64,000 nucleotides of DNA, taken from Ruegeria sp. A3M17. Its GTDB lineage: Bacteria > Pseudomonadota > Alphaproteobacteria > Rhodobacterales > Rhodobacteraceae. Under the pieces are notes generated by a model. The model was not told the DNA's origin and made no database searches. It was given only the letters and a program-made list of their open reading frames with translations. Both the position numbers and the translations under genes were made by a program. The stretch covers positions 124,001 through 188,000 of the forward strand of contig NZ_QOCF01000031.1 of NCBI RefSeq assembly GCF_003318255.1, written 5' to 3'. Shown here piece after piece: positions 43,469-56,953 of the stretch (its first letter is position 1; every line of letters begins with the position of its first letter).

Positions 43469-44128
43469 ATGCAGAAACCATCCACAATAAAAGAGATTCA
43501 GGCCTTAGTGGCGGCATCTCCCTGGCTTAGTGCGATAGATGAACGTCTGGCTAACGGCCTGGTAAATTCAGGTCGCAGTGTGAGTGTCGAAAGTGGCGCG
43601 GGCATTTATGCACTCTCTGATCATGATCAATCCGTTTTTGCCGTTGTGTCAGGGGCTGTTGGAATTCAGTTGGACGATGGCCAATCCGGGATCGTGTTGG
43701 GCCATGTGTTCGGGCCCGGTGCCTGGTTTGGCGAGGCGGCGGCAATCACCGGCTCGCCCCGACAGATTGGCGCGATTGCTCTGACAGATTGCCAACTGCT
43801 GCGGGTCCCGTACGAGGCTTTGATCCAACTAGAGCAGGACGACCAACCGATATGGCGTGCGCTTGGGGCGCTGGCCGTCACAAATGGCGCACTTGCCATT
43901 CGCGTTGCCCGTGATCTTATGCTGGCGGATTCCAAACTGCGCAGCCTTACAATCCTGACCAGGATATCCGACGCGTTTGCGCCGACCCGCGCCATTCCCC
44001 TGACCCAACAGCATTTGGCTGAGATTTGTCGCTTGTCCCGAAGTGCCTTCGCCAAGCTCGTTGCAGAGCTGGAGGCCGGCGGGTTGGTTCAGCGAAAATA
44101 CGGCTCACTTGTGGTCGTTCCGCAATGA
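43469..44128 (+). CDS. Crp/Fnr-family transcriptional regulator
   Basis: The 219-residue protein (ATG at 43469; an adjacent TTG would add one residue) has a cyclic-nucleotide-binding-like beta-barrel (VVSGAVGIQLDDGQSGIVLGHVFGPGAWFGEAAAI) and a C-terminal helix-turn-helix (LTQQHLAEICRLSRSAFAKLVAELEAGGLVQRKYG). It lacks the N-terminal Cys cluster of FNR. Phosphate-binding Arg-Ser of true CRP is not obvious (GSPRQIGAIALTDC), so cAMP binding is uncertain. It is divergent from the barrel gene with 86 bases between and probably controls the barrel/DUF3604 genes. Confidence 0.88.
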   Translation: MQKPSTIKEIQALVAASPWLSAIDERLANGLVNSGRSVSVESGAGIYALSDHDQSVFAVVSGAVGIQLDDGQSGIVLGHVFGPGAWFGEAAAITGSPRQIGAIALTDCQLLRVPYEALIQLEQDDQPIWRALGALAVTNGALAIRVARDLMLADSKLRSLTILTRISDAFAPTRAIPLTQQHLAEICRLSRSAFAKLVAELEAGGLVQRKYGSLVVVPQ

Positions 44129-45041: not shown

Positions 45042-45873
45042 GGGTCAGGATGCATTGATTTTTGTTTTGCCGCGTGCTTCACGGCTCCAAGAAACGGAGC
45101 GGTGACATGAGCGACCTATTTTGGCTGACCGATGTGCAGATGGCCAAGCTCACCCCTTTCTTTCCGAAGTCGCACGGCAAGCCTCGGGTTGATGATAAAC
45201 GGGTTTTGAGCGGGATTATCTTCATCAATCGCAATGGGTTGCGCTGGCGGGGCGCCCCCAAGGAATACGGGCCACACAAGACGCTTTACAGCCGTTGGAA
45301 GCGTTGGAGCGAAAAAGGCATCTTCGCGCGGATCATGGCTGGTCTGGCCGCCGAGCACGGCGAAGAAAAGACGGTTATGATCGATGCCACATATCTAAAG
45401 GCCCATCGCACGGCATCCAGTTTGGGGGTCAAAAAGGGGGCGTGGTCGCCTGATTGTCAGAACCAAAGGCGGCATGAATACCAAGTTGCACACAATCTGC
45501 GACAGCAATGGGTTGCCTTAGAACCTCTTTGTCACCGCCGGGCAGGTCAGCGATTACATCGGTGCGCGGGCTCTGCTCAGCAGCCTCCCAAATGTGGACT
45601 GGCTGCTCGGCGATCGCGGCTATGATGCCGACTGGTTCCGAGACGCGTTGAAAGACAAAAGGATACGCGCCTGCATCCCCGGTCGAAAGCAACGCAAGAC
45701 ACCAGTCAAATACGACAAGCGCAGATACAAGCGGCGAAACCGCATCGAGATCATGTTTGGCAGGCTCAAAGATTGGAGACGCGTCGCGACCCGCTACGAT
45801 CGCTGCCCGAAAGTCTTCCTCTCAGCAATCGCTCTCGCGGCAACTGTCATCTACTGGTTATGAATCCTGAGCC
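45042..45873 (+). mobile_element. IS5-family (IS427-type) insertion sequence, decayed
   Basis: The element is 832 bases. Its imperfect terminal inverted repeats are GGGTCAGGATGCAT (45042-45055) and, at the right end, the complement of GGCTCAGGATTCAT (45860-45873); 12 of 14 bases match. It is flanked on both sides by TA, and the rebuilt target tTAa fits the YTAR preference of the IS427 group of IS5. It holds one transposase gene that needs a frameshift and also carries a nonsense codon. Confidence 0.85.
45107..45863 (+). pseudogene. IS5-family transposase, frameshifted and with a nonsense codon
   Basis: The first frame runs from the ATG at 45107 (DLFWLTDVQMAKLTPFFPKSHG, with the first Asp in MIDATYLKAH) and reaches KKG near 45437. 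The catalytic remainder (second Asp in LLGDRGYDADWF, Glu in RRNRIEIMFGRLKDWRR) lies in another frame, and the shift falls in the run AAAAAGGGGG at 45431-45440. IS427-type elements commonly use programmed frameshifting here, so the shift alone is not damage. However, in the second frame a TAG at 45519-45521 replaces the expected TTG Leu codon (GLP-stop-NLF), which should abolish full-length transposase. Confidence 0.85.
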
Positions 45874-47678: not shown

Positions 47679-48428
47679 TTGAAGAATTCAATTTTAGCAG
47701 CAGCGGTCATTTTGAGTACATTCTATCCGCTTAGTCCGGATGGTGTTGCGGCGCAAACCGCAGAAGAGGTTGAGACGGGCAACCGACTAGCGGCGGTGTT
47801 GCGAGCCGGTCGAAGTGTGGTGTCAAACAGCCAAGAACTAATCAACGATCCAACCGTCACTGACAAAGGTCTATCCGGTGACGTATTTTATGAGAAAGTT
47901 ATTCAGGCCTACTTGGAGGCCAATGGCGAACCACCGCTGCATGATGGACTGGACCCATTGGAGCGTAGGCTTACTGAAACGCAACTGGACGCTATGGTCA
48001 CTGTTATCGACGCAAACCAAGAGATAATAAATGCCGAAGGAGTGGCTTTCAAAGGTTTTATTCCAGCGGTTTTTGCCCGGTTGGTAAATGAGCAATTCGC
48101 TGATGAAATCGGCACATCTGCCATGGTCAAGGTAACTGCGCCCTCGGAACTTGTCCGCAATCGCATGGCCCGTCCCGATACTTGGGAGAACTCGGTTATC
48201 GAGGAAAAGTTCAAGAACTCTTCTTGGGCCGAAGGGCAGCCATTTTTCGAAGAAACTGACGTTTCAGGAACACCCGCTTTCCGAATGCTGATCCCCGAAT
48301 ACTACTCTGAGTCCTGTCTTTCATGCCACGGATCGCCAGCGGGTGAAACGGATGTGACCGGTTTCCCAAAAGAAGGTGGGCAACTTGGGGATCTGGCAGG
48401 TGCAATCAGCATAACCCTTTTTAGATGA
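47679..48428 (+). CDS. Periplasmic haem-c DUF3365 (Tll0287-like) sensor protein
   Basis: The 249-residue form starts at a TTG at 47679 preceded by GGAGG at 47664-47668; an upstream in-frame TTG at 47640 lacks such a site. A signal peptide (NSILAAAVILSTFYPLSP, cut near AAQTAEE) leads to a DUF3365/Tll0287-like sensor fold. Near the end C213-L-S-C216-H217 is a CxxCH haem-attachment motif. Tll0287-type proteins bind haem and resemble PAS sensors. The gene overlaps the hybrid kinase gene by four bases (ATGA), so it is probably the separate sensory subunit of that kinase, reading a gas or redox signal in the periplasm. Confidence 0.85.
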   Translation: MKNSILAAAVILSTFYPLSPDGVAAQTAEEVETGNRLAAVLRAGRSVVSNSQELINDPTVTDKGLSGDVFYEKVIQAYLEANGEPPLHDGLDPLERRLTETQLDAMVTVIDANQEIINAEGVAFKGFIPAVFARLVNEQFADEIGTSAMVKVTAPSELVRNRMARPDTWENSVIEEKFKNSSWAEGQPFFEETDVSGTPAFRMLIPEYYSESCLSCHGSPAGETDVTGFPKEGGQLGDLAGAISITLFR

Positions 48429-51130
48429 AACAAGAACCTGGTGTGAGTGACAATTGGCGGTGGGTGTCCGAAAACACTATTCCGGTGCGCATAGGATCAC
48501 TGTCGGCGCTATTGTTAGCTGCTTTGGTCGTGAGCACCATTGTGATGGTCTACGATCTGGCGCGCAACCAAGCCCGCATACAGGACGCAAATACTGAGTT
48601 TCACCGGCTGGAAGTGGCAGGCCAGGCAGATCGTCAATTTGGAGAGATGAGGTACTGGCTGACGGATCTTTCTGTCAGCTTACTGACCCTTTCGGAGCGG
48701 CGCGCGAACGAAGCAAGCACGAAGCTCAATAGCAGCCTCGAACAGCTCTCCGCTTTTGCACCCGAGTCCGCAGCCAGCGTGCAAGAGCAGGCAAACTCCT
48801 ATTACGAAACTTCCATGCAAGCAGCCGATGCTTACACCGACGGCAACAGAGTGCTGGGAAATACTTTACTTGCACAGGCCCGAGTGGCCAGTGATGCTGT
48901 CGACAAGACGCTGACGCAATTGGTCGAGGACCTATCCAAAAGCGCCGACCAAACCAGAAATGAAGCAACGGTTGCCGCCAAGGCAGCGATGAACCGAGCG
49001 ATCATTGCATGTGTTGTCATTGTGATATTGGGAGCGCTTCTTACCTGGCGTGCTCTGAGATCGATCGTTGTGCCACTGCATGCAATCAACATTGCGATTT
49101 CAGGCCTGATCCGGGGTGAACGGGATGTCGCGCTGCCGCCCGAAGGCCCTGATGAGCTGGGCCGGATGTCCCAAGCGCTAAGGGCCCTTCGCGACAGCCA
49201 GGACAAACGGCGCGAACTAGAAGAAGAAGCGCGTGCCCAGCGCAATACAATCCTCACTGCGATTGAAACAATCCCAGATGGATTTGCGCTGTTCGACAAC
49301 GAAGACGAGCTCATACTCTTCAACGACCGATTCCGAAGTATTTTCGCACATGTGGACGACATTCTTGTGCCGGGCACACGGTTCGAAGACATCTTGAGGC
49401 TGCAGCTGGAACGAAAATCGGTGGATACCGGCGATGTTCCAGACGAAGAGTGGATTAGCAGCCGGCTCGCACGACATCGCAGACCTGACGGGGATCGCCA
49501 AGAAGTCTTGCTGGGTGGTGCCTGGATTCAGGTATCAAAACGCCAGACACCCGACGGGGGCACGGTCGCCGTTTATAGCGATATTTCTGACCTTAAGTCC
49601 AAACAGGAACAACTTGAAGAAGCCAACGCGCAGGCGATCGCGGCCAGCTCGGCTAAAAGCCAGTTCCTGGCTTCCATGAGCCATGAGTTGCGTACACCGC
49701 TGAACGCAATCATCGGCTATAGCGAAATGCTGTCCGAAGATGCGCAGGAAATGGGTTTCGAGACAGCGATCGATGATCTGGAGAAGATCATGGCATCTGG
49801 GCGGCATCTGCTCTCTCTCATCAATGACGTTCTTGATCTATCCAAGATCGAAGCGGGCAAAATGGAAATGTACCCGGAACGCTTCGCCCTCCGACCCTTG
49901 TTGGACGAAGTCGCTTCAACGGTGGTGCCCTTGGTGAGCAAGAATGGAAATGATCTGGTTCTCTCTTGTGATCTCGAAGACACTGACGAGATCGAAACCG
50001 ATAAAACCAAACTCCGGCAGAACCTTTTCAACCTGTTGTCCAATGCTGCAAAGTTCACCGAAAGTGGTAAGATTGAGCTTCTTGTCTCCAAACTGGAAAA
50101 AAACGACCAGGACTATTTTCGATTTTCAGTGGCAGACGAAGGTATCGGCATGACCCCAAAGCAACGCGACAAGCTGTTCCAGGCGTTCGTCCAAGCTGAC
50201 CAGTCTACTACGCGAAATTTCGGGGGCACCGGGTTAGGGCTCGCCATTGCACAGGAATTTACACGTATGATGGGTGGACACATCACAGTCGATAGCAAAG
50301 AGGGTGTTGGATCAACCTTCTCTTTCGAAATCCCAGCCCGCTACGATACCGTTTCTACGTCGATTAATGATCATAGCGAAACGTCACCGGACACTGCTTT
50401 GGGCCGCGTTCTGATCGTGGATGATGAAGAAGACGCACGGAACGCGGTTGCACAAATCGTGCGCGAGGAAGGGTATGATGTCTTGCTGGCATCGAATGCG
50501 GAGGCAGGCATGGAAATCGCGCGCTCGCAAAAGCCTGACGTTATTCTTCTGGACGTTATTATGCCCGAACGCGACGGTTGGTCGATGTTAAAAGAACTCA
50601 AGGCTGACGCGAAGCTTTGCGAAACACCCGTCGTCCTGGCCACGATTGTCGCGGATCGCGACATGGGACTTGCCTTCGGAGCGATCGAGCACCTTATTAA
50701 ACCCATTGATCCTGCACGGCTGATTTCAACACTAGATTCAATCGCCACGGGGCGTGACAAGGATGTGCTGATCGTTGACGACGATATGTCAACGCGGAAC
50801 CTGTTTCGCCGTATTTTGACGCGCAATGGTTGGACAGTGCGTGAGGCGGCAGACGGTCACGGCGCGCTCAGCCAATTGAAATCCAAAAGGCCGACTCTGA
50901 TGGTATTGGATATCATGATGCCGAATGTTGACGGTTTCGATGTTCTCAAAACGGTTCGCACAACCGATGGGCTTGCAGATTTGCCGGTGATCGTAGCCAC
51001 ATCCAAGGACCTCACGCGGGACGAGCTGGATTGGTTAAAAGCCCATTCAGATGAAGTCATTCGCAAAGGCGATACGGGTCGAGGTGATCTGATTGCGGCA
51101 CTGAAACGTCAGCTACAGGATTACTCATAA
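48425..51130 (+). CDS. Hybrid sensor histidine kinase with two receivers
   Basis: The 901-residue protein has in order: TM helix 1 (about 23-43), a helical periplasmic region, TM helix 2 (about 191-209), HAMP (about 210-262), PAS (about 275-388), DHp with phospho-His420 (SMSHELRTPLNAIIGYSEM), HATPase with N-box (LFNLLSNAAKF), G1 (DEGIGM) and G2 (GGTGLGLAIAQ), and two receivers with phospho-acceptors D710 (ILLDVIMPERDG) and D829 (MVLDIMMPNVDG). The second receiver is followed by a short C-terminal tail. It probably receives the signal from the DUF3365 protein and phosphorylates its receivers and the stand-alone regulator encoded 18 bases downstream. Confidence 0.94.
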   Translation: MKQEPGVSDNWRWVSENTIPVRIGSLSALLLAALVVSTIVMVYDLARNQARIQDANTEFHRLEVAGQADRQFGEMRYWLTDLSVSLLTLSERRANEASTKLNSSLEQLSAFAPESAASVQEQANSYYETSMQAADAYTDGNRVLGNTLLAQARVASDAVDKTLTQLVEDLSKSADQTRNEATVAAKAAMNRAIIACVVIVILGALLTWRALRSIVVPLHAINIAISGLIRGERDVALPPEGPDELGRMSQALRALRDSQDKRRELEEEARAQRNTILTAIETIPDGFALFDNEDELILFNDRFRSIFAHVDDILVPGTRFEDILRLQLERKSVDTGDVPDEEWISSRLARHRRPDGDRQEVLLGGAWIQVSKRQTPDGGTVAVYSDISDLKSKQEQLEEANAQAIAASSAKSQFLASMSHELRTPLNAIIGYSEMLSEDAQEMGFETAIDDLEKIMASGRHLLSLINDVLDLSKIEAGKMEMYPERFALRPLLDEVASTVVPLVSKNGNDLVLSCDLEDTDEIETDKTKLRQNLFNLLSNAAKFTESGKIELLVSKLEKNDQDYFRFSVADEGIGMTPKQRDKLFQAFVQADQSTTRNFGGTGLGLAIAQEFTRMMGGHITVDSKEGVGSTFSFEIPARYDTVSTSINDHSETSPDTALGRVLIVDDEEDARNAVAQIVREEGYDVLLASNAEAGMEIARSQKPDVILLDVIMPERDGWSMLKELKADAKLCETPVVLATIVADRDMGLAFGAIEHLIKPIDPARLISTLDSIATGRDKDVLIVDDDMSTRNLFRRILTRNGWTVREAADGHGALSQLKSKRPTLMVLDIMMPNVDGFDVLKTVRTTDGLADLPVIVATSKDLTRDELDWLKAHSDEVIRKGDTGRGDLIAALKRQLQDYS

Positions 51131-51148
51131 GTCGGAAAGTTAAAGGCG

Positions 51149-51514
51149 ATGGCAAAGATACTTATTGTGGAAGACAATGATATGAACCTCGACATGCTGT
51201 CGCGCCGGCTGCAGAGAAAAGGCTACGAAACCGTATCGGCCCGCGATGGTCAGGCTGGTGTCGAACAAGCCCTATCGGATAAACCAGATCTGATTTTAAT
51301 GGACATGAGCCTGCCCGTAATCGACGGGTGGGAGGCGACCAGACAGATAAAAGCAAACCCAGACACAAGAGCTATCCCAGTTGTCGCTTTGACAGCCCAT
51401 GCGATGCAGAGTGATCGCGACAAAGCCATGGAGGCAGGTTGCGACGAATTCTATACCAAACCGATCGAACTGCCTGGGTTGCTGGAGATTATTAAAAAAC
51501 TGCTGGACGGGTAG
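51149..51514 (+). CDS. Single-domain response regulator (DivK-like)
   Basis: The 121-residue protein is one receiver domain: acidic pocket E8-D9, phospho-acceptor D52 (LILMDMSLP), a Thr at VVALTAHAM and Lys in YTKPIEL. The text resembles DivK-type shuttle receivers. It has no output domain, so it most likely carries phosphoryl groups between the hybrid kinase and the DHp-like helices of the next protein. The downstream gene begins 7 bases later. Confidence 0.92.
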   Translation: MAKILIVEDNDMNLDMLSRRLQRKGYETVSARDGQAGVEQALSDKPDLILMDMSLPVIDGWEATRQIKANPDTRAIPVVALTAHAMQSDRDKAMEAGCDEFYTKPIELPGLLEIIKKLLDG

Positions 51515-51520
51515 CGCGGC

Positions 51521-53068
51521 ATGGTTTCCAAGAACCGAAAAGACAAGTTGGCACTAGCCACCCGCATTTCCCAGAACCTTAATGGGCCGTCAGAAGCGAT
51601 CGTAGGGTTTCATAACCTGCTGATCGAGGAGGTGCGCAGAACTGGGCCAGAAGCCGCGTTGGAGGATTTGCAAAAGATTGGCGCCGCCGCCAGCAACCTT
51701 GTTCAGATGATCGAATTGTTGGGGAAAAGTGCGCACCAAATCTCGGCCGATAAAGACGCTCAGGCAAAATTACGGCATGATTTACGCTCACCGATCAACG
51801 CGATCATTGGTTATTCGGAAATGGTGCTGGATGACTTCGAGGCAGATCTGGAGCCGTCCGCTCGCAGCGACATAAACGCTATCCTGAGCGAAGCGCGTAA
51901 GCTGGCGCTACAGATCGACAGCACCATCAGTGATGCAGACATTCAGAATAACGCTGAGGACATTGACCGGGATCAGGAAATTGCGGCCAGCCTTGAACGC
52001 AGCCTTGCGAACTCTGATGCCAGTCGCGAAGCCCTGACCGGACGTATCTTGGTGATTGATGACGAGGCGGCCAATCGGGAAATCCTAACTCGTTTGCTAG
52101 AGCGCCGCGGACACAGTGTGCGATCGGTCGGCTCAGCCGGCGAAACTTTTGAAGCACTAGATCGCGAGGGGTTCGACCTTGTTCTGTTGGATATCCTAAT
52201 GCCAGAGGTAAATGGCATCGACGTCCTCGAAAGAATGAAAAAAGATCCGTCTTGGCGCGAAATACCCGTAGTCATGGTTTCAGGTCTGAACGAGACGAAC
52301 GCTATCGCCAAATGCATCAGTGTCGGCGCCGAGGACTATTTGCCAAAACCTATCGATCCTGTTTTGCTGCACGCGCGCGTCGATGCCTGTATGGAACGCA
52401 GTCGCTGGCGCGCCAAGGAGTTGGCATTCACAAATGAGATCACATACGAACGTGACAGGGCAGACAAATTGCTGCACTCGATGCTGCCCGCGCCGGTTAT
52501 CAAACGACTAAACGATGGCGAGACAAACATCGCTGATCGCTTTGTCGGCGCCACCATAATATTCGCGGATATCGTAGAATTTACACCACTGGTAGCCCGC
52601 ATGGACGCCGGTGACCTGATCCTTGAACTGTCAAACTTGTTTACTGCTTTTGATGACCTGGCCACCCTGCACGGCATCGAAAAAATCAAGACGATTGGAG
52701 ACGCCTACATGGCGGCATCGGGTATTCCGTTGCATCGCGAGGACCACGCCCACGCGGCAGTAAACTTTGCACGTGACATCCTTAGAACGATGTCTGACAG
52801 CACAGTAAGTAGCGCGGGTTTGCAAATCCGCATTGGCATCCATTCCGGACCGGTCATTGCTGGTCTGATTGGGCGAAAACGGTCAATTTATGATGTTTGG
52901 GGGGAAACCGTGAACCTTGCCAGCCGTCTCGAGGCCACAGGCAGGTCGGGGCACATCCACATCTCTGCCGAAACCAAGGATGCGCTGGGTGACCATTTGC
53001 CCAACGCGGAAGCGCAAACTCATTTTGTAAAAGGAGTGGGAGAAATAACGTCCTACTTCCTATCATAA
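51521..53068 (+). CDS. DHp-like/receiver/class III adenylate cyclase fusion
   Basis: The 515-residue cytosolic protein has an unusual order. Residues about 10-70 form a DHp-like helix pair whose phospho-His is replaced (SQNLNGPSEAIVGF). Residues about 80-135 form a second one with His86 (RHDLRSPINAIIGYSEM), with no ATPase domain after it. A receiver follows (173-290, D224), then a linker coiled coil (LLHSMLPAPVIKRL) and a class III cyclase domain: metal Asp350 and Asp394, K390 and D458 as the adenine-selecting pair, N465 and R469. These residues predict ATP as substrate. It is the last gene of the operon and the likely output: phosphorylation by the kinase controls cAMP synthesis. Confidence 0.9.
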   Translation: MVSKNRKDKLALATRISQNLNGPSEAIVGFHNLLIEEVRRTGPEAALEDLQKIGAAASNLVQMIELLGKSAHQISADKDAQAKLRHDLRSPINAIIGYSEMVLDDFEADLEPSARSDINAILSEARKLALQIDSTISDADIQNNAEDIDRDQEIAASLERSLANSDASREALTGRILVIDDEAANREILTRLLERRGHSVRSVGSAGETFEALDREGFDLVLLDILMPEVNGIDVLERMKKDPSWREIPVVMVSGLNETNAIAKCISVGAEDYLPKPIDPVLLHARVDACMERSRWRAKELAFTNEITYERDRADKLLHSMLPAPVIKRLNDGETNIADRFVGATIIFADIVEFTPLVARMDAGDLILELSNLFTAFDDLATLHGIEKIKTIGDAYMAASGIPLHREDHAHAAVNFARDILRTMSDSTVSSAGLQIRIGIHSGPVIAGLIGRKRSIYDVWGETVNLASRLEATGRSGHIHISAETKDALGDHLPNAEAQTHFVKGVGEITSYFLS

Positions 53069-56261: not shown

Positions 56262-56626
56262 GTTCTTCTCCTAAAATTCCGATTCATCCAATGGGCAGCC
56301 TAGACCATTTAATCATTAAGTTAATGGAATATATGGTCGGTAACTGTTCTGAACTCTGAATGATCTTGACCGTATAGCCGGTATTCTCAACGATTTGCTC
56401 GAACCGCTAAGAAGCGGGTAAACGACAAACGTTCGGCTAGTGCTGCACGCCCGGTTTCTAAACAGCTGGCTTGAAATAAGTTTTACTAGCGAAAACGGAT
56501 GCGCTGCATGAGCTTTGACCATGGCGGCACGACGTAAGCTTCAACCGACAGGCAGCCAAGTGCCTCCGATTTTCCATATTTATCTTATTACTGCTATGTG
56601 TGAATTCATCAAACGATGAGGACATA
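56262..56626. other. Divergent control region, no supported gene
   Basis: This is the 365-base space between the divergent AsmA-like and channel genes. It should carry both promoters. Short open frames on the minus strand (56316-56522, 56458-56706) have no family features. No strong palindrome was seen. Confidence 0.4.
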
Positions 56627-56953
56627 ATGAATTCACTAACCAGAATAACACGTGGGATAGGCGTCGCTTTCAAGGACGGTAGAGTGAAAGGCATTCTTGC
56701 CTTCACAGTTGGAATGATTTTATGGGCCTCGGTCTTTTATCACTTTGTCGAAGGTTGGAGCTGGCTCGACTCAATCTACTTTTCTGTCGTGACCATTTCG
56801 ACCGTGGGGTTTGGTGACTTTTCACCCGAAACCGCGGCAGGGAAGATCTTTACGATGGTATACATTATTGTAGGTCTCGGTGTCTTCGTGACTGCAGCAA
56901 CCACAGTGGCGGACACAATCTTGTCCCAGGACGACAAAAAAGCGGACAAGTAG
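56627..56953 (+). CDS. Small two-helix potassium-channel-like protein
   Basis: The 108-residue protein, started at the ATG at 56627 behind GAGGA, has two transmembrane helices (GILAFTVGMILWASVFYHFVEG and IFTMVYIIVGLGVFVTAATTVAD, each written here in part) around a pore loop with the selectivity filter TVGFGD. This is the minimal ion_trans_2 pore. Four copies would make a potassium-selective channel. No regulatory RCK domain is attached, and the tail is short and charged. The gene is followed by a 7-base-pair hairpin at 56983-57008. Confidence 0.88.
   Translation: MNSLTRITRGIGVAFKDGRVKGILAFTVGMILWASVFYHFVEGWSWLDSIYFSVVTISTVGFGDFSPETAAGKIFTMVYIIVGLGVFVTAATTVADTILSQDDKKADK

Follow-up and report, generated by a model that had tools for sequence, protein, structure and literature searches.

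A stretch of 64,000 nucleotides from Ruegeria sp. A3M17 (contig NZ_QOCF01000031.1, positions 124,001 to 188,000, hereafter the window) encodes a four-gene signalling operon. A predicted c-type-haem sensor of the DUF3365 family, a hybrid histidine kinase, a stand-alone receiver and a class III adenylate cyclase protein follow one another on the plus strand. The operon is real, conserved and more unusual than was recorded in an earlier note made from the sequence alone, and it is a variant of the phosphorelay. The four genes are one inherited signalling unit, and this four-gene unit is firm. Its signal, its phosphotransfer and its cyclic AMP (cAMP) output are put forward below as predictions. 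The most unusual part of the operon is a tandem pair of dimerisation and histidine phosphotransfer (DHp) hairpins at the start of the cyclase protein. We hold it slightly more probable than not that this pair and the adjoining receiver represent an undescribed, portable class of relay input, in which a duplicated DHp has become a single-chain phosphotransferase, usually with one His, that is swapped between cyclase and SpoIIE outputs and here would connect a haem-c co-sensor to cAMP.

The sensor and kinase genes overlap by four bases (ATGA). The stand-alone receiver gene begins after a gap of 18 bases and the cyclase gene after a further gap of 6 bases. The open reading frame (ORF) coordinates agree with the four genes and the spacing given in the earlier note, and Pfam bore out its domain make-up of a DUF3365 protein, a kinase with two receivers, a receiver and a receiver-cyclase. 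The CxxCH motif that it had reported in the DUF3365 protein is present as CLSCH.

Conservation and distribution of the operon

The comparison sample comprised 103 loci, 16 of which had a DUF3365 relative. The sensor, kinase, receiver and cyclase genes were found on one strand in 15 of these 16. Such four-gene loci were present in Rhizobium (L007, L008, L118), Phyllobacterium (L009, L120) and Sinorhizobium meliloti, medicae, mexicanum, sojae and terangae (L103, L104, L117, L119, L121), with further examples in L087, L088, L089, L105 and L111. Conservation of the gene order had been proposed earlier as a check, and its recurrence in 15 further loci places the arrangement beyond chance. Protein identity to the window across these loci ranged from 41 to 81%. 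The sensor/kinase junction was ATGA in 13 of them and GTGA in L104, and there was no overlap in L105. In the sixteenth DUF3365 locus (L090, genome G063) the sensor and kinase genes lie tail-to-tail with a gene for a receiver-cyclase that has no DHp region, and none of the genes there was labelled as a stand-alone receiver; this sensor and kinase may serve a different cyclase.

In the plasmid collection 79 records matched the cyclase protein (E <= 1e-60), of which 77 were Sinorhizobium or Rhizobium. The sensor, counted as a separate set, also matched 79 records (E <= 1e-10), again with 77 from these two genera. Near-full-length relatives of the cyclase protein (match starting by residue 12) were found in 4 of 295 family, 7 of 385 class and 5 of 398 phylum genomes, where the three samples overlap and the genome of the window itself is counted. 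The whole-genome spread of the cyclase protein is patchy.

By eye, locus L192 (G904) contains sensor, kinase and receiver genes together with a tandem-DHp-receiver gene that turns into N in its later part, and it was not counted. Two overlapping genes without a Pfam match over the cut-off directly follow the cyclase gene in S. meliloti (L103:11680-13747), and two genes are likewise annotated after it in S. medicae (L104:13571-15647).

The tandem DHp module of the cyclase protein

The cyclase protein matched HisKA (PF00512) over residues 82-142 with 40.9 bits, above the cut-off of 26.9. This module had been overlooked in the earlier note, whose proposed line from a haem sensor to cAMP stood as regards the parts and the single operon but was incomplete in this respect. 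The match lies in the second of two hairpins (Table 1), which are homologous to each other (hhalign probability 99.5, E 2.3e-22, two alignments). Relatives were taken from the 103 loci by a cyclase-protein match above 190 bits starting at or before residue 90. This gave a set of 36 proteins, window included; proteins without either hairpin signature might fail this criterion, and kinases of the loci that matched from residue 90 or before at 100-133 bits were excluded. The hairpin-2 profile found 33 of the 36 hairpin-1 pieces at E <= 1e-3 and none of 720 shuffled pieces. Eight relatives were scanned for HisKA with Pfam. Two stretches were present in four of them (L011, L015, L017, L109) and a single stretch in the others, located in hairpin 1 (L021, L038, and below the cut-off L039) or hairpin 2 (L103). 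No HATPase_c match was found in the window protein with Pfam at E <= 1. No Pfam match to a classical Hpt domain was found in the cyclase protein or the relatives scanned, and the fold search gave generic bundles.

The fragment of residues 7-161 was modelled by AlphaFold as four long helices, with a predicted template modelling score (pTM) of 0.73 and a mean predicted local distance difference test (pLDDT) of 81.9. The pLDDT exceeded 90 across most of the helices and was below 55 in the last 20-odd residues. In this model the tandem hairpins form one four-helix bundle, a putative single-chain pseudo-dimer. With HisKA-type hairpins, an acceptor His, no ATPase match and a four-helix model, the cyclase protein has the architecture of a DHp phosphotransferase.

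The model of the whole cyclase protein had a mean pLDDT of 82.6 and a pTM of 0.51. Its cyclase domain aligned with 6sir (Z 27.7, root mean square deviation (rmsd) 1.2 over 176 residues) and with Spirulina platensis CyaC 1wc1 (Z 24.7, rmsd 1.9 over 178 residues); for the whole protein, the structural alignments extended mainly over residues 255-515. Residues 280-321 were modelled as a long helix linking receiver to cyclase. Across 24 aligned sequences, D180, D181, D224 and K276 of the receiver were invariant and S254 nearly so, and D350, K390, D394, D458, N465 and R469 of the cyclase were invariant. The cyclase residues are presumably, by comparison with mammalian cyclases, the metal Asp pair, the Lys/Asp adenine pair and the Asn/Arg transition-state pair. 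Judged from these residues, ATP cyclisation is likely.

Acceptor histidines among relatives

The acceptor His was confined to hairpin 2 in 30 of the 36 proteins, where hairpin 1 has Gln in 28, Glu in one and Ser in one. Many of these 30 are closely related, so the set does not amount to 36 independent cases. Three proteins had the His only in hairpin 1 (L021 from Opitutae, L038 from Desulfobacteraceae and L039 from Porticoccaceae) and three in both hairpins (L015, L016, L017). None had it in neither, and the hairpin-2 His was kept in 33. A tree was constructed from the receiver-cyclase part alone (44 rows, 8 without DHp), on which the minimum number of state changes was five. L017, with both His, adjoins L021, with the first only (support 100/100), and L015 and L016, with both, share a clade with L013, L113 and L114, with the second only (support 100/99). 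L039, L025 and L110 have long branches, and for L025 and L110 it is uncertain how hairpin 1 should be aligned. Either His therefore appears to be dispensable, and never both, in the 36-protein sample. Retention of one or the other is what would be predicted of a one-chain bundle that needs one active site.

L070 was considered for the set and left out (189.0 bits, match from residue 80). It is a chain of 1298 residues with one H-box and, by eye, ATPase motifs before the receiver and cyclase, which mark it as an ordinary fused kinase-cyclase.

The cassette with other outputs

Tandem-DHp profiles were searched against 289 class and 329 phylum genomes, and selected matches were inspected. Most weak matches span one hairpin only. 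The new class-genome matches inspected were two SpoIIE proteins (L178, L179) and one ordinary kinase (L180, by eye), and the one new phylum-genome match inspected was L192 (G904). In both SpoIIE proteins, read by eye, hairpin 1 again has Gln and hairpin 2 carries RHDLR. The analysed stretches around the two SpoIIE genes also encode a kinase and a receiver resembling the stand-alone receiver, about 6 kb off in L178. The presence of the cassette on a SpoIIE output in two genomes indicates that it is portable, and such reuse is expected of an independent relay input.

Table 1. Features of the operon, its upstream neighbour and the SpoIIE proteins carrying the cassette. Coordinates are window positions unless a locus is named.
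Feature	Coordinates	Strand	Details	Evidence
Sensor gene, stand-alone DUF3365/Tll0287-like (sCache_heme)	47679..48428	+	TTG start, 249 aa	ORF, PF11845
CLSCH haem-c attachment motif	48315..48329	+	residues 213-217; its two Cys are the only Cys of the protein	sequence
Hybrid histidine kinase gene	48425..51130	+	901 aa	ORF, Pfam
Kinase periplasmic domain	48557..48994	+	about residues 45-190; conservation limited to loci with a DUF3365 gene	bounds and helical nature by eye
Kinase HisKA/DHp	49652..49858	+	residues 410-478	PF00512, 72.2 bits
Kinase receiver 1	50408..50734	+	residues 662-770	best PF00072 stretch
Kinase receiver 2	50768..51109	+	about residues 782-895	second PF00072 stretch, bounds by eye
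Stand-alone DivK-like receiver gene	51149..51514	+	121 aa	ORF, PF00072
Cyclase protein gene (tandem DHp, receiver, joining helix, class III cyclase)	51521..53068	+	515 aa	Pfam, AlphaFold
DHp hairpin 1	51545..51736	+	residues 9-72, Gln18 instead of His	homology to hairpin 2
DHp hairpin 2	51749..51940	+	residues 77-140, H-box RHDLRSP, His86 (51776-51778)	PF00512, 40.9 bits
Cyclase-protein receiver	52046..52381	+	residues 176-287, acceptor Asp224	PF00072, 97.0 bits
Class III adenylate cyclase domain	52547..53062	+	residues 343-514	PF00211 (Guanylate_cyc), 169.9 bits
Crp/Fnr-like regulator	43469..44128	+	judged outside the unit	PF00027, 59.4 bits
Tandem DHp, receiver and SpoIIE/PP2C	L178:6712-8478	-	588 aa, same class	SpoIIE, 149.2 bits
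Tandem DHp, receiver and SpoIIE/PP2C	L179:6044-7666	-	540 aa, same class	SpoIIE, 119.6 bits

The predicted haem sensor and the operon kinase

The sensor matched PF11845 at 63.1 bits (cut-off 24.1) and was the sole such match in the 4.44-Mb genome. Its N terminus, read by eye, is signal-peptide-like and ends in ...GVAAQ. Residues C213, C216 and H217 were invariant in an alignment of 13 sequences. A gene for CcmE, which serves the attachment of haem c, is present in the genome. A single-sequence search for solved relatives of the sensor gave only two matches (E 0.44 and 0.81). The mature part was free of Cys beyond the CxxCH pair in 17 of 17 sensors, with the signal boundary set by eye.

The kinase had Pfam matches to PAS_7, HisKA, HATPase_c and two Response_reg stretches, and with HisKA, HATPase_c and receivers on one chain it is a hybrid histidine kinase. 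A HAMP match of 22.0 bits was under its cut-off of 25. The N-terminal layout by eye is a transmembrane segment, a periplasmic helical domain and a second transmembrane segment. In all 16 DUF3365 loci the alignment to the window kinase begins no later than residue 21, whereas in 30 kinase loci (>160 bits) without a DUF3365 relative it begins at residue 158 at the earliest, although some of these 30 are cut by contig ends (L026) and many do not have a tandem-DHp cyclase as partner. The contrast of 16/16 with 0/30 ties DUF3365 to the kinase periplasmic domain, to which the sensor would bind directly. Eight of the 30 kinases sit in tandem-DHp loci (L011, L012, L014, L021, L106, L107, L108, L112), and the cyclase core thus also goes with other sensors. 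The S. medicae operon kinase (L104:8654-11486) is split over two frames and is missing from the gene table of PLSDB, which omits pseudogenes.

Proteins of the sCache_heme group carry haem c in a Cache fold according to the available part of a 2026 preprint (PMC12889525), which ties redox-related roles to stand-alone members and nitric oxide (NO) sensing to fused ones. In that text NO is tightly bound by a membrane member that bears HAMP and lacks an axial Cys, but not by a stand-alone member in which an axial Cys is present. The C59A variant of the latter also released NO fast, with autoxidation little different, which suggests, as far as the text extends, that the axial Cys alone does not decide NO retention. 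The operon sensor shares with these proteins the PF11845 match and CxxCH, and lacks an axial Cys like the NO-binding member. It differs in standing alone in a kinase operon, whereas the preprint NO binder is a fused-type HAMP membrane member. Because it has no axial Cys, it probably has an open or labile sixth ligand site. Stand-alone, yet Cys-less and kinase-tied, the operon sensor fits neither class of the preprint neatly.

It is possible, if somewhat doubtful, that the DUF3365 protein reports or carries a redox state and not a gas, and that the kinase reads redox. The sensor is a stand-alone protein, the form to which the available preprint text assigns redox-related roles, and no Cu nitrite reductase was above the cut-off in the genome (30.4 bits, cut-off 296.3, in a search that did not include nirS or NO reductase). 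However, the stand-alone member tested in the preprint (PMC12889525) has an axial Cys, as far as the available text describes it, while all 17 sensors here resemble the NO binder in having none, and in either case the pairing with a kinase domain speaks for a sensory role. We lean towards a detachable sensor subunit, for gas or redox. The operon is a natural test of the proposal, found in the same part of the preprint, that sCache_heme proteins of the stand-alone form have redox-related and not sensory roles (PMC12889525).

The stand-alone receiver

The third protein matched PF00072 at 93.5 bits. Among solved structures its best relative was Caulobacter DivK (107.6 bits), followed by PleD (98.0 bits). 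In a Phyllobacterium plasmid (L120:8330-8896) the receiver gene is in frame only to about residue 93.

Proposed signalling pathway

With two acceptor His sites (one in the kinase and one in the cyclase protein) and four receivers, a His-Asp-His-Asp relay is the simplest reading of the operon. On balance we favour an explanation in which the haem sensor acts through the kinase, a receiver Asp, His86 and Asp224 to change cAMP. The periplasmic c-type-haem sensor would change state on NO or a redox shift and, so changed, would dock on the hybrid kinase at its helical periplasmic domain. The kinase would then autophosphorylate and pass phosphate to the Asp of its own receivers or of the DivK-like receiver, from which it would move to His86 in the tandem DHp. 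Because the tandem DHp has no ATPase domain, it is taken as a putative Hpt-type phosphotransferase, an architecture to which sequence and model both point. Phosphate would pass from His86 to Asp224 of the adjoining receiver. The last helix of this receiver runs into the cyclase, where the expected residues are in place, and it may alter the homodimer and so shift cAMP output. If this is true, tandem duplication together with the loss of one active His has turned a homodimeric kinase domain into a phosphotransfer module made of a single chain, a loss that occurred more than once and could fall on either copy. In symbiotic rhizobia the operon would also be a candidate path, amenable to genetic analysis, by which a haem signal in the periplasm reaches cAMP.

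Several results weigh against this explanation. Hairpin-1 pieces from three of the 36 proteins (L013, L025, L110) were not significant, and hairpin 1 of the window on its own had no Pfam match. The fold neighbours of the DHp fragment were generic helical bundles with no phosphotransferase among the matches listed, although scores of generic bundles may reflect only a common arrangement and do not speak against a phosphotransferase. The sensor profile found no solved structure at E <= 0.1, not even Tll0287, and the sub-threshold Cu nitrite reductase score given above, which bears on a source of NO within this genome, also counts here. In four cyanobacterial loci, from Microcoleus (L018, L019, L022, L023), a large hybrid kinase, a DivK-like receiver and a receiver-cyclase stand in a row without haem sensor or tandem DHp, and the tandem DHp is thus not strictly needed for such an output. 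Single-chain ROP 1yo7 was among the neighbours of the DHp fragment (Z 14.8, rmsd 1.8 over 114), and Foldseek returned nothing at E <= 0.001. As the fold neighbours are generic bundles, the DHp identity rests on sequence.

The main rival to the relay follows from the third protein being DivK-like. The tandem DHp would be a docking or reading platform like DivL, binding the phosphorylated DivK-like receiver and tuning the cyclase, and the kinase would phosphorylate Asp224 directly. The kinase-dead DivL reads phosphorylated DivK by a docking surface without His, according to the accessible part of PMC4211667, and the operon likewise has a DivK-like receiver beside a kinase-dead DHp protein. Loss of the hairpin-1 His in 30 of the 36 proteins is consistent with this role. 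A protein that only reads could do without any His, but all 36 tandem-DHp proteins have retained one or more, in hairpin 1 or 2, whereas in DivL, as described in the same portion of that paper (PMC4211667), Tyr replaces the His and the PAS and ATPase domains are still present. We regard a docking platform as unlikely.

Compared with the relay, a role of the tandem DHp as a phosphatase or phosphate sink, resetting Asp224 or the DivK-like receiver, appears improbable. The H-box positions after the His serve the phosphatase activity of kinases, and these residues (HDLRS/T in most) are kept. Sequence cannot separate reset from forward phosphotransfer, but a reset function leaves the position of the cassette directly ahead of the receiver unexplained. 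An ordinary two-component operon, with the N-terminal helices of the cyclase protein as a vestigial dimerisation region, would be in keeping with the receiver-cyclases without DHp that adjoin a kinase and a receiver in the four Microcoleus loci, but is very improbable given reuse of the cassette with SpoIIE and a His kept in 36 of 36 proteins across Alphaproteobacteria, Gammaproteobacteria, Desulfobacteraceae, Opitutae and Myxococcales despite at least five changes of place on the tree.

Comparison with known systems

The cyanobacterial CyaC carries kinase, receivers and cyclase on a single polypeptide and, reportedly from the work of Kasahara and Ohmori in 1999, is activated through autophosphorylation and phosphotransfer. 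CyaC and the operon have in common a kinase, a receiver and a class III cyclase in one line. In place of one polypeptide, the operon divides kinase, receivers and cyclase among separate proteins. It encodes four in all: the haem sensor is a protein of its own, the stand-alone receiver is DivK-like, and a tandem DHp precedes the receiver of the cyclase protein.

ChpT and Spo0B are homodimeric DHp-derived phosphotransferases. The cyclase protein differs in being one chain, usually with one His, fused to its own receiver and output. TorT/TorS and LuxP/LuxQ are of the type with a periplasmic co-sensor plus a hybrid kinase, and like the operon they combine a hybrid kinase, helical in its periplasmic domain, with a soluble protein of the periplasm. 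TorT and LuxP are periplasmic binding proteins, whereas the operon co-sensor belongs to the haem-c-type Cache family and its interaction is predicted. PhyT, an alphaproteobacterial HWE/HisKA_2 DHp protein with a degenerate ATPase, acts as a phosphotransferase according to the part of PMC5898713 that was available, and is a precedent for the role proposed here. PhyT, ChpT and Spo0B have in common with the cyclase protein a DHp without working kinase activity, and phosphotransfer would be a further shared trait. The cyclase protein departs from PhyT, as that portion of the paper presents it, in having two HisKA hairpins and no ATPase match.

Neither a DUF3365-kinase-receiver-cyclase operon nor a tandem-DHp cyclase was found in the literature by title or abstract, a search with subscription papers mostly outside its reach. 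The earlier note likewise knew of no described system of this exact composition. Other mentions of DUF3365, in the accessible parts of the papers, were a Geobacter kinase with DUF3365 and a table row in Idiomarina. In the accessible part of one paper 'tandem DHp' was used in another sense, for DHp plus CA domains.

Other possible cAMP inputs and neighbouring genes

The genome contained 17 class III cyclase domain matches and 12 cyclic nucleotide (cNMP)-binding matches, which makes the operon one of many possible cAMP inputs. A Crp-type gene upstream (Table 1) had been suggested as a possible responder, with its cAMP binding uncertain, and a role as the dedicated responder was not supported. 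No relative of it was found (E <= 1e-3) in the available stretches of the 16 DUF3365 loci, where flanks are only a few kb in some cases and L105 starts 3.2 kb before the sensor frame. The link is weakened also because the 12 cNMP-binding matches compete in the genome. The gene product scored 35.7 bits against the 266-bit cut-off of the NCBIfam CRP model.

A small potassium-channel-like protein (window 56600-56953, plus strand, PF07885 79.8 bits) was considered as a cAMP target and rejected, as it had no cNMP-binding match. Its relatives were found in only 2 of the 16 DUF3365 loci, beside the operon on the S. meliloti and S. medicae plasmids (L103, L104). Broken IS5-like transposase frames were visible by eye between the Crp-like gene and the operon (window 45062-45863, plus strand).

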